DNA from: a virus
Length of the DNA: 33,191 nucleotides
IMG/VR virus record: IMGVR_UViG_3300021519_000037
Coordinates: 1 to 33,191 of that record
Reading direction: 5' to 3' (one strand)
Part shown: positions 20,559-23,646 of the stretch, piece by piece
How the letters are laid out: each line of letters opens with the position of its first letter
How positions within the stretch are numbered: the stretch's first letter is position 1
Translations under genes and position numbers: made by a program
The notes under the pieces: generated by a model
Told to the model about the DNA's origin: nothing
The model's database searches: none
What the model saw: the letters and a program-made list of their open reading frames with translations, nothing else

Positions 20559-21189
20559 CTTGATTTGCTACCGGAGGAGGTTTAGCATCATAAATGTCGG
20601 TGGGTTTGCGAAGCCCTTTAGACCGATCCAGACTTGGAGAGAAAGAAATCGACCTGCCCGACAGCGGCAATTATCGTAAATCTTTCCCTTCATAGCAACA
20701 CTAAGTTGCAGTCTGAATCGTCTAAAAGCGTCCAATACTGTCCAATACCGGCCAGGTGTGTAGCAATCACTGACCTGTAAACTCATGTGCTGAAACCAGG
20801 AGTCATATCCTCAGCGTAAGGGATGCCAACTCAGAGCTGATCTGGGGATGCCAATCGAGGCTTAAATCGTGAAGTCACCAGACTTTAAATGGAATAATAG
20901 ATGAGCCACAGGAGTGGTGGGACTGTCTAATCGAGTGTTACGGTATAAGTCGATTAGAGTAAACCGGGTAAAGTGGGCACAGGAGTGGGATTGACACTCT
21001 GTGGTAGATGCATGACCAGCAGCCTAGAGGCGATGGTTCCGGCAATTTGGCTCATATAGGCAAGTAACACAGGATTAAACCAGTGGTGTCCCCTAACCAC
21101 TTATTGCCTACTGTTGCCTGAAAAAAGTGATACAAGTACAAACTCATTAAAAAAAGACAGAATTTGTTCCTACGATTTACGGGAGATAT
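20559..21189. other. Gene-free stretch of about 630 bases, rich in short repeats and hairpins
   Basis: No convincing + strand gene is present. Short direct repeats: GTCCAATAC at 20730 and 20740 (10-bp period), GGGATGCCAA at 20820 and 20845, CACAGGAGTGG at 20907 and 20978, TTGCCT at 21104 and 21114. Inverted repeats are listed under the candidate RNA. On the minus strand there is a 72-codon frame (20568-20786) and a 43-codon open frame ending in APKPKA (20539-20670), neither convincing. No tRNA, tmRNA, intron core or insertion sequence could be recognised. It may be a leader RNA, an origin or a decayed gene. Confidence 0.6.
20820..21119 (+). ncRNA. Candidate structured RNA or leader upstream of the methyltransferase
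   Basis: Seven local stems can be drawn on the + strand: CTCAGA/TCTGGG (20830-20846), TGAAGTC/GACTTTA with tetraloop ACCA (20870-20887), a perfect 9-bp stem TCTAATCGA/TCGATTAGA (20926-20934 with 20950-20958), CACAGGAGTG/CACTCTGTG with one bulge (20978-21003), GCCTAGAG with CTC-ATA-TAGGC (21022-21029 with 21051-21061), AGTGGT/ACCACT (21082-21101) and TAGGCAA/TTGCCTA (21057-21063 with 21104-21110). The last and the fifth compete for TAGGC. The stems also exist in the minus strand. It matches no RNA family I can name. Chance could give some of these, the 9-bp stem least likely. Confidence 0.35.
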
Positions 21190-22170
21190 ATGGCATGGTT
21201 GATAAGCAAAGCACTTTACGAGAAATGGCACTCTTCGCTGGAGCTGGAGGAGGAATTCTTGGAGGACACCTGCTCGGATGGAAAACAGTCTGTGCAGTCG
21301 AATGGGATAACTACGCAGCTTGCGTACTTGCCGCCCGACAAAATGACGGCATTCTCCCGCCTTTCCCGATTTGGGATGACGTTCAAACCTTTGACGGTAA
21401 AAAGTGGAGAGGACTTGTTGATGTGGTTTCGGGAGGATTTCCTTGTCAGGACATATCCTCAGCAGGAAGGGGAGCAGGAATCACAGGAAGTAAATCCAGT
21501 ATGTGGAAACACATGGCACGAATTATCGATGAAGTACGACCTAGATTCGCATTCGTGGAGAACTCACCTTTGCTTGTGGGACGAGGAGCTGCAATGGTCA
21601 TCGGTGATCTTGCCGAAATGGGGTATGACTGTCAGTGGTGCATTGTTTCAGCACAAGACGTTGGTGCGCCCCATCAACGGGACAGGTTTTGGCTTGTCGC
21701 CAAACGGAGTGGACACATTTCACACACCGAACACGACGGGTCTGGATGGCGGCAGCAACAGCCGCGCAGCATTACAAAAACGCAGAAAGGACGGGTTCCC
21801 GAATCTGGAAACGATGGTGGAACGAGCCACTTGGCCTACACCGACAGCACACAATGCGAAGGAAGCGGCATATCCAGCGGAATTCCTCCGCAAAACTCCA
21901 ACATTGGCGGCTACGGTAGCAATGCGGAAGTTTCCGACACCGCAAGCATCCGACAATCGGGACAGGGGGAATATGAGCAACCCTTCAATACAGCGGAGAG
22001 TTGCAATGGGCAAACAAATAATGCTCAGTCAATCGGTAGACAGCAATTCTGGGCAATTGAACCCGATGTGGGTCGAGTGGCTCATGGGGTGGCCTGTAGG
22101 GTGGACAGACTTAAAGCTATTGGAAATGGACAAGTTTCAGCAGTGGCAGCAACAGCATGGAGGATTTTAA
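21190..22170 (+). CDS. Overlapping-frame protein fully inside the methyltransferase gene
   Basis: A 326-aa frame, offset by 5 nt from the methyltransferase start, runs through the whole gene and stops just before the helicase ATG. GGGAG (21181-21185) is 4 nt before its ATG. Its sequence reads as a real protein: MAWLISKALYEKWHSSLELE, paired FSRLSRFGMTF and WPTPTAHNAKE/FPTPQASDN blocks, and near the C-terminus LNPMWVEWLMGWPVGWTDL (290-308), a motif I remember from phage and bacterial proteins next to or within C5-methyltransferase loci. No methyltransferase catalytic motifs occur in it. Function unknown; a partner or specificity factor is one idea. If not translated, it would be an extraordinary open frame. 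Confidence 0.65.
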   Translation: MAWLISKALYEKWHSSLELEEEFLEDTCSDGKQSVQSNGITTQLAYLPPDKMTAFSRLSRFGMTFKPLTVKSGEDLLMWFREDFLVRTYPQQEGEQESQEVNPVCGNTWHELSMKYDLDSHSWRTHLCLWDEELQWSSVILPKWGMTVSGALFQHKTLVRPINGTGFGLSPNGVDTFHTPNTTGLDGGSNSRAALQKRRKDGFPNLETMVERATWPTPTAHNAKEAAYPAEFLRKTPTLAATVAMRKFPTPQASDNRDRGNMSNPSIQRRVAMGKQIMLSQSVDSNSGQLNPMWVEWLMGWPVGWTDLKLLEMDKFQQWQQQHGGF

Positions 22171-22181
22171 ATGGAACTTAG
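21195..22181 (+). CDS. C5-cytosine DNA methyltransferase
   Basis: The 328-aa enzyme (from ATG 21195) should transfer a methyl group from SAM to C5 of cytosine. Motif I is FAGAGGG (14-20), motif IV GGFPCQDIS with catalytic C84, motif VI FVENS (E122), motif VIII QRDRF (Q161-R164), and the last motif AIGNGQVSAVAATAW (308-322). All catalytic positions look intact. The variable region between motifs VIII and the end (about 175-300) would hold target recognition. No restriction partner is seen, so it is probably a solitary enzyme protecting phage DNA or marking it. An upstream TTG (21114) would add 27 residues but lies in the hairpin region; GGGAG at 9 nt supports 21195. Its end overlaps the helicase start by 11 nt. 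Confidence 0.9.
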   Translation: MVDKQSTLREMALFAGAGGGILGGHLLGWKTVCAVEWDNYAACVLAARQNDGILPPFPIWDDVQTFDGKKWRGLVDVVSGGFPCQDISSAGRGAGITGSKSSMWKHMARIIDEVRPRFAFVENSPLLVGRGAAMVIGDLAEMGYDCQWCIVSAQDVGAPHQRDRFWLVAKRSGHISHTEHDGSGWRQQQPRSITKTQKGRVPESGNDGGTSHLAYTDSTQCEGSGISSGIPPQNSNIGGYGSNAEVSDTASIRQSGQGEYEQPFNTAESCNGQTNNAQSIGRQQFWAIEPDVGRVAHGVACRVDRLKAIGNGQVSAVAATAWRILNGT

Positions 22182-23646
22182 ACCGCACCAGCAACTGGCA
22201 ATCGAGCAGATAAGAAACTCCCTGGCCACTGGTCACAGACGACCACTACTGGCTGCACCATGCAGTTTTGGCAAGACATTGACTGCTGCATACATCCTGC
22301 AAAATGCTGCTGAGAAAGGAAAAAGGGCATTCTTTTTTGCTGACCGCATCAAGCTGATCTCGCAGACCTGTGAGCAGTTCGATAGGCTCGGCATGAAGTA
22401 CGGCGTGATGCAAGGTGATCACGAAATGTCGGACTCATCACAGCCAATTCAAATCGCCAGTGTACAGACAATTGCCAGACGAAAAATAAAGCCAGTATTT
22501 GATATTGCAATCGTGGACGAATGTCATATTACGGCCGAAGTCATTAAACAATTGATGGAAAGGTTTGATGCTGTGCCATTTATAGGGCTATCTGCGACAC
22601 CATATGCAAAAGGGCTAGGTAAATACTATGATGACTTGCTGGTCCCAATAACGGCCCAGGAGCTGCTCAAACAAGGCTATCTAGCACCTGTTCACTACTA
22701 CGGCGGTGCTCATATCAACACAAAGGGCATCAAGGCCAAGCAATTGTCCACTGGTGGCTCCGACTATGATCCGCTGGAAATTGCTACAGCGACAGAAAAA
22801 CAGCAGGAAATTCTCACTGGCGACATAGTAAAAAACTGGATGCTACACGGCGAGAATTCACAGACGATTGCATTCAGCCCATCAATCAAGCACAGCAAGT
22901 ATATGGTGGATATGTTTAATCAGGCCGGAGTGCCAGCTTGTCATATCGATGGGTATACGGATGAAAGGGTAAGGCAATCGCTATATAAAAAACACAGTGA
23001 GGGCGAGTTCAAAATCTTATCGTGCAGCAGGCTACTGAATACTGGCTATGACGCACCTTCCGTCCGATGCCTGATTGATTGTTTCCCCACTAGATCATTG
23101 ATTGCATTCCAGCAACGGGCTGGTCGAATCATGCGCATCCATCCTGGCAAAGAGTATGCAATATATCTGGATCACGCGAGTAACGTACAACGATTCGGAT
23201 TTGCCGAGAACATGGTTCCAGATGTCCTAGATGATGGCGAGAAAGCATTTACAGAAAAAGACCAGATCAAAGAAGTAAAAGAGAAAAAGCAAAGCAACTG
23301 CCCAGCCTGCTCAAAAATTATGATTGGCATTCGATGCTCGTGTGGGTACGAAATCCCGATTAGGGAAAGGCTAGAAACAGACTCCTCAACGCTCGTACAG
23401 CTCTCAGGAGCAAAGAATCCGACCACGGCTGATAAGTCCATATTCTACTCTGGTCTGCTGTCCTACGGCCGTGACAAGGGCTATTCGGACGGCTGGGCAG
23501 CACATCAATATAAAACCAAATTTGGTGTGTGGCCGAGGATGCTGGACATCAGGCTCACAAAAGCAATTCCGACATCGGTCACGGGCTGGATACAGCACCA
23601 GCAGATAAAGTGGAGAGCTGGACAAGCAAAACAACATTCATATTAG
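22171..23646 (+). CDS. Superfamily 2 DEAD/DEAH-type helicase with C-terminal zinc ribbon
   Basis: The 491-aa protein has the SF2 helicase motifs: motif I APCSFGKT (29-36, unusual in having SFGKT rather than GxGKT), motif II DECH (116-119), motif III LSATP (140-144), and motif VI QQRAGRIMR (314-322). Region 377-391 has CPACSKIMIGIRCSCG, a zinc ribbon. The resemblance is to type III restriction/UvsW-like and phage replicative or branch-migration helicases. No primase is recognised in the window, so it may act in recombination-dependent replication with the annealing protein and NinG, or unwind origin DNA. It follows the overlapping methyltransferase pair directly (TAA then ATG). Confidence 0.85.
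   Translation: MELRPHQQLAIEQIRNSLATGHRRPLLAAPCSFGKTLTAAYILQNAAEKGKRAFFFADRIKLISQTCEQFDRLGMKYGVMQGDHEMSDSSQPIQIASVQTIARRKIKPVFDIAIVDECHITAEVIKQLMERFDAVPFIGLSATPYAKGLGKYYDDLLVPITAQELLKQGYLAPVHYYGGAHINTKGIKAKQLSTGGSDYDPLEIATATEKQQEILTGDIVKNWMLHGENSQTIAFSPSIKHSKYMVDMFNQAGVPACHIDGYTDERVRQSLYKKHSEGEFKILSCSRLLNTGYDAPSVRCLIDCFPTRSLIAFQQRAGRIMRIHPGKEYAIYLDHASNVQRFGFAENMVPDVLDDGEKAFTEKDQIKEVKEKKQSNCPACSKIMIGIRCSCGYEIPIRERLETDSSTLVQLSGAKNPTTADKSIFYSGLLSYGRDKGYSDGWAAHQYKTKFGVWPRMLDIRLTKAIPTSVTGWIQHQQIKWRAGQAKQHSY

Follow-up and report, generated by a model that had tools for sequence, protein, structure and literature searches.

Two almost coextensive reading frames on one strand of a phage genome, here called alpha and beta, likely encode the two subunits of a single C5-cytosine DNA methyltransferase, a reading to which we assign a probability of roughly 0.86. 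The window analyzed is the whole 33,191-nucleotide stretch of IMG/VR record IMGVR_UViG_3300021519_000037, a phage record in which portal, Sak, NinG and helicase genes are present, and the features of the system are collected in Table 1. It is shown that both frames are conserved, that amino-acid selection acts on both, that the methyltransferase motifs are divided between them and that the two halves are fused elsewhere. Translation, complex formation, methylation and the purpose of the enzyme are inferred, and the two-subunit reading rests on no expression, binding or methylation data.

Table 1. Coordinates of the overlapping frames and neighboring features in the window.
Feature	Position	Strand	Description	Basis
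Beta ORF	21190..22170	+	ATG 21190 (MAWLIS...) to TAA 22168-22170, 326 codons; putative specificity/motif IX subunit	phrog_1008 E 4.9e-28; conserved in 315 ORFs; purifying selection
Alpha ORF	21195..22181	+	ATG 21195 to TAG 22179-22181, 328 codons; C5-cytosine methyltransferase catalytic subunit, motifs I-VIII and X	PF00145 E 1.5e-32; phrog_363 E 5.7e-65; structure model vs. M.HhaI large domain, Foldseek E 1e-12
GGGAG	21181..21185	+	Probable ribosome-binding site common to both starts	Sequence
Alpha motif IV (GGFPCQDIS)	21432..21458	+	Catalytic	Sequence; G80 G81 F82 P83 C84 D86 S88 invariant in 86 alphas
Alpha motif VIII (HQRDRFWLVA)	21672..21701	+		Sequence; H160 R162 R164 W166 invariant
Alpha linker / beta recognition-domain-like segment	21717..22049	+	Disordered and nearly neutral in alpha; constrained in beta, with WPTPT/FPTPQ blocks	
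Beta motif IX, LNPMWVEWLMGWPVGWTDL	22057..22113	+	Beta residues 290-308	P292, E296 invariant in 110 betas; equals in-frame motif IX of fused MelBins gp5
Alpha C-terminal helix with motif X (RLKAIGNGQVSAVAATAW)	22068..22172	+	Helix 292-326 in model	G310 N311 G312 Q313 invariant
DNA helicase	22171..23646	+	Operon context, outside the system	phrog_16 E 6.2e-82

An earlier note, made by a model without database searches, had described the two frames with their starts, lengths and ends and one GGGAG serving both; the frames are as described, and the GGGAG can probably serve both starts. Beta is the +1 frame of alpha, such that each beta codon consists of alpha positions 2, 3 and 1', and it starts 5 nt ahead of alpha, with the two frames 99% coextensive; a TTG at 21114 is an alternative alpha start that would give 355 codons. 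The GGGAG lies 4 nt from the first ATG (beta) and 9 nt from the second (alpha), and of 243 related loci, 193 have a Shine-Dalgarno-like motif in the 18 nt preceding the beta ATG. Since the helicase ATG directly abuts the beta stop codon, beta matches operon spacing no worse than alpha, whose end the helicase gene overlaps by 11 nt.

The most immediate objection is that beta is a shadow ORF, open only through the amino acids and codon choice of the methyltransferase, with database matches that reflect the same accident elsewhere. In its favor, no stand-alone beta was found among the loci from two alignment scans and two genome surveys, and the +1 frame over the catalytic region is open for ~170 codons even in distant methyltransferases of ~30% identity. 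The remaining evidence all but excludes it. When the synonymous codons of the methyltransferase were shuffled in 20,000 trials and the +1 frame scored for stops, the frame was stop-free in 0.02% of shuffles when the methyltransferase's codons were reused, and never when codon usage was taken from 13 other genes of the window, corresponding to a chance of 0.0002 or less; the +1 and +2 frames of those 13 genes contain 12-49 stops. Searches with both proteins yielded about 140 viral loci, and alignment scans added further genome and viral loci. Among the relatives above ~40% alpha identity (about 110), the +1 frame is practically free of internal stops, compared to mostly 12-30 in the +2 frame, the exceptions being positions right at the frame ends and a few loci with an indel in a run of G. 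Three ordinary C5-methyltransferases with an in-frame motif IX have 7-21 stops in the corresponding +1 frame. All 315 detected beta ORFs overlap an alpha ORF, nearly always as its +1 frame. Beta begins with ATG at 236 of 243 loci, mostly as MSWL, whereas the alpha codon just upstream varies (ATG in 81, GTG in 74, TTG in 17, TTA in 14, or another codon). The count of AAT/AAC at the beta start is biased, as loci were picked for ATG there, and carries no weight.

In evolutionary terms, then, beta is a genuine gene, its double coding is conserved, and the pair is co-inherited at every locus found. The claim of the earlier note that both frames are translated and co-inherited holds to this extent, with translation itself still an inference. 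That note had also proposed two outcomes that would make beta an artefact. The first, stops closing the frame in relatives, is not borne out, as the frame is essentially open in the ~110 relatives. The second, that beta would match nothing except accidental overlaps of methyltransferase genes, is literally true as far as the overlaps go, but these are not accidental because beta is under amino-acid purifying selection and in an actinophage enzyme its C-terminal half forms one polypeptide with the catalytic half.

Selection was examined in each frame, as the note had suggested, and both frames are constrained. Transversions at alpha codon position 1 that alter alpha were split by whether they also alter beta. 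For ordinary genes of the same loci, used as a control, the ratio of beta-changing to beta-silent changes is 0.9-1.7, meaning that the two occur with about equal frequency. In the alpha/beta family beta-changing transversions are less frequent by a factor of 2.5-4, and where alpha changes are synonymous the beta replacements tend to be conservative. Restricting the comparison to 92 disjoint (independent) pairs gives a beta ratio of 0.162 (CI 0.12-0.21), i.e., beta-changing transversions are ~6 times rarer than beta-silent ones, which is difficult to reconcile with a shadow ORF. By region the ratio is 0.47 over alpha residues 9-70, 0.33 over 71-165, 0.036 over 166-284 and 0.114 over 285-326, and the first two values show that the N-terminal half of beta is also selected. 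The reciprocal test gives an alpha dN/dS of 0.09 in the catalytic part and 0.75 (CI 0.33-2.85) in 166-284. This relative behavior means that beta, rather than alpha, matters most between motifs VIII and X, where beta is also the more conserved of the two (0.61 vs. 0.51), again against a shadow ORF. Purifying selection on amino acids thus acts on both frames. These tests speak to translation over evolutionary time and not to production in a given infection.

The identification of alpha as a C5-methyltransferase, also claimed in the earlier note, held on the basis of its match to PF00145. Alpha meets the criterion of motifs I-VIII with a PCQ loop and ENV/ENS, and its GGFPC-D-S, ENS and RxR residues are invariant. 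In the structure model 176 columns align to the large domain of M.HhaI, followed by predicted disorder from ~180 to 290 (pLDDT 40-50, almost no secondary structure) and then by the C-terminal motif X helix. Motif X, with its invariant GNGQ and this helix, is in alpha at nearly all loci. Motif IX is not recognizable in the alpha frame, and the note's statement that this frame holds all of the C5-methyltransferase motifs failed in this respect, since motif IX is in the other frame.

Beta ends in the motif LNPxWVEWLMGWPxGWTDL, in which most positions besides the two invariant residues of Table 1 are above 90% across 110 betas. The key to its identity is gp5 of Gordonia phage MelBins, a single ORF comprising PF00145 (residues 1-185) and phrog_1008 (258-493), which runs from the catalytic half through a PTP-block segment and a beta-type motif IX to motif X, all in one polypeptide. 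In an alignment with three ordinary methyltransferases, the MelBins motif falls on their canonical motif IX (RKLTPREC..QGFP). As the motif and the PTP-block segment are fused in this enzyme and align in this way, the C-terminal half of beta is the recognition/motif IX part of a C5-methyltransferase. The motif IX criterion is met only in beta, and so is the target-recognition region criterion met in beta, although DNA recognition by beta is inferred. The N-terminal half of beta is missing from the fused enzyme and has no known homologue. AlphaFold of beta alone is of low confidence (pLDDT 57, pTM 0.27), which would be expected if folding needs a partner, yet it gives no positive support. Pfam and NCBIfam returned nothing consistent on 110 betas, and a PDB sequence search with a beta profile gave only chance-level matches and no solved relative.

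It is also important to consider that motif X changes place. In the natural REARRANGEMENTS (loci L052, L105, L223, L267 and L302) the alpha frame terminates ahead of motif X, which is encoded in the beta frame instead. All five swaps are nested among X-in-alpha relatives in the catalytic-domain tree, with support of 0.84-0.996 for four of them and weak support (0.28) for L302. The five nested swaps indicate that either subunit can supply a motif of which the enzyme needs a single copy. A further candidate, L053, was excluded because its beta frame has no motif IX and resembles a plain frameshift. Separately, in L197, L198 and L211 alpha stops soon after motif VIII or earlier and motif X is seen in neither frame; these may be decayed genes or may carry motif X elsewhere.

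A second alternative is that beta is a separate protein, for instance anti-restriction or regulatory, that merely overlaps the methyltransferase. The absence of a known homologue and of any Pfam or NCBIfam match for its N-terminal half is compatible with this. The placement of motif IX in beta and not alpha, the natural fusion and the movement of motif X between subunits all point instead to one enzyme and make this alternative very unlikely. Of the roles suggested in the earlier note, a partner protein or specificity factor is supported as the best reading, while no support was found for an anti-restriction protein.

A third alternative is programmed frameshifting, with ribosomes leaving the alpha frame for that of beta once past motif VIII, which would give a fusion of motifs I-VIII, the target-recognition domain (TRD) and motif IX, with the upstream beta frame incidental. 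It is suggested by Gordonia phage Float294 gp62/61 and Mycobacterium phage Dorothy gp71/72, in which the catalytic and TRD-IX-X halves occupy consecutive frames. This too is very improbable, as beta starts from a conserved ATG of its own (236 of 243) and its N-terminal half is selected, and as the fusion in the window would be without motif X unless a second shift led back; no systematic search for slippery sites was made.

The two-subunit reading can be placed among known enzymes. M.AquI and M.EcoHK31I are two-polypeptide C5-methyltransferases; in M.EcoHK31I motif IX is on the smaller polypeptide while the large subunit has motifs I-VIII and X and the predicted recognition domain, and in M.AquI (CYCGRG) alpha carries I-VIII and beta IX-X (PMC3404938). 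In M.EcoHK31I the gene for the 176-aa small polypeptide is reportedly nested, in an alternate reading frame, within that for the 309-aa large one (Lee, Kam and Shaw 1995). M.EaeI is grouped with M.EcoHK31I (YGGCCR) as a comparable split system. The window pair meets the M.EcoHK31I criterion of motif IX on one polypeptide (beta) and I-VIII and X on the other (alpha). It differs in that beta is about twice as long, starts before alpha and is almost fully coextensive with it, and in that the recognition domain is apparently in beta. The criterion of recognition in the large subunit is not met because alpha 166-284 is near neutral and modeled as disordered while beta is constrained there. We regard the pair as a variant of the M.EcoHK31I-like motif division, leaving homology to M.EcoHK31I open. 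With M.AquI it shares the split, and the M.AquI motif layout recurs in L223 and L302. The window itself differs in having motif X in alpha and almost completely overlapping genes, and the criterion of IX and X together on beta is not met here and is met only in the five swap loci.

The actinophage enzymes belong to the same families as the window pair, phrog_363 and phrog_1008, and differ in being fused in one frame (MelBins) or split in tandem at motif VIII (Dorothy, Float294), with TRD, IX and X in one frame. The fused, tandem and fully overlapping arrangements look as though a single gene had undergone no, one or two changes of frame, respectively, in an order that is inferred. The name of phrog_1008 ("DNA methyltransferase") implies a whole enzyme; this is the beta-frame family and covers only the TRD/IX part. 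For Float294 gp61 (L001 2771-3388) beta-type homology (phrog_1008 26-319) extends far ahead of the annotated start, and this start is therefore probably too far downstream. In Paenibacillus phage Shelly gp56 (L005 2114-2818), another member of phrog_1008, the depositors labeled the beta frame "g55 internal gene" and thereby recognized the overlap independently, by human annotation. No paper on overlapping methyltransferase frames in phages was found in the literature searched. Split C5-methyltransferases are thus already known, and the earlier note's view that near-complete double coding over a metabolic enzyme is rare must be qualified by the two characterized precedents; the new elements are the complete co-extension of the frames, the assignment of the recognition domain to beta and how widely the arrangement occurs.

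In the mechanism we propose, alpha would be the catalytic large domain, with AdoMet binding, the PCQ catalytic loop and motifs I-VIII, and its chain would cross the unstructured linker to the motif X helix, which would pack back onto the large domain. Beta would contribute what alpha is without, the target-recognition segment and motif IX, i.e., the small domain of ordinary C5-methyltransferases, and its N-terminal half would probably tether it to alpha. Both subunits may be made together because their adjacent start codons share one ribosome-binding site. The enzyme would probably methylate phage DNA, for example against host restriction, an inference for which there are no methylation data.

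A bolder reading, for which we find the case as strong as the case against, is that these enzymes form a large and mostly unrecognized C5-methyltransferase class in phages, prophages and plasmids, with catalysis and recognition in two frames, arisen by reciprocal overprinting and with specificity free to change. In such a history a frameshift would split an ordinary enzyme, beta would acquire a new N-terminal half by extending over the catalytic gene, and alpha would keep a new linker over the recognition gene. As alpha is nearly neutral over the recognition gene, beta could then change specificity without cost to alpha.

Surveys of one enterobacterial family and of the phylum to which it belongs recovered betas in 20 of 295 and 25 of 398 genomes, respectively, and each one examined lies +1 to a methyltransferase frame; beta is also carried by two prophage-like loci of E. 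coli. Short methyltransferases on Bacteroides and Trichormus (cyanobacterial) plasmids (L372 820-1554 and L374 1002-1763) have, by eye, a long +1 frame, which may suggest a much deeper family. The family supplies hundreds of natural cases of near-complete same-strand double coding in one of the most thoroughly studied enzyme folds. Gene prediction programs rarely assign two genes to one set of bases, and one subunit is therefore often missing from annotation: only beta is annotated in Pseudomonas phage VB_PaD_phPA-G, as a hypothetical protein, and only alpha in Acinetobacter phage ABMM1. Methyltransferases of this kind cloned or scored from alpha alone would appear inactive or recognition-less. 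Substitutions synonymous in alpha can disrupt beta, which makes a direct test of the two-subunit reading possible.

Several individual loci deserve mention. The +1 frames of the two plasmid genes end in motif IX-like blocks (HPDLLESLMNFPIGWT; NPEFLRWLMGFP). In E. coli PCP07014 (L315 1512-2273) a TGAATAG stretch stops alpha and beta at the same place, and RefSeq gives alpha as a pseudogene with an internal stop. About 15 loci (L012, L014, L038, L111, L112, L114-L116, L119-L121, L187, L240, L247 and L248) have 9-11 consecutive G immediately behind the PCQDIS codons, where one G gained or lost swaps the frames, joining the alpha N-terminus to the beta C-terminus in L012, L014 and L119-L121 and the beta N-terminus to the alpha C-terminus in L187; the run may be a phase-variation tract or a sequencing error. 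Lastly, in Propionibacterium phage B22 gp50 (L368) an intein apparently interrupts the methyltransferase immediately ahead of the catalytic Cys, with DLTVERDHSFIAAGIVVHN preceding the break and CQDLS following it.
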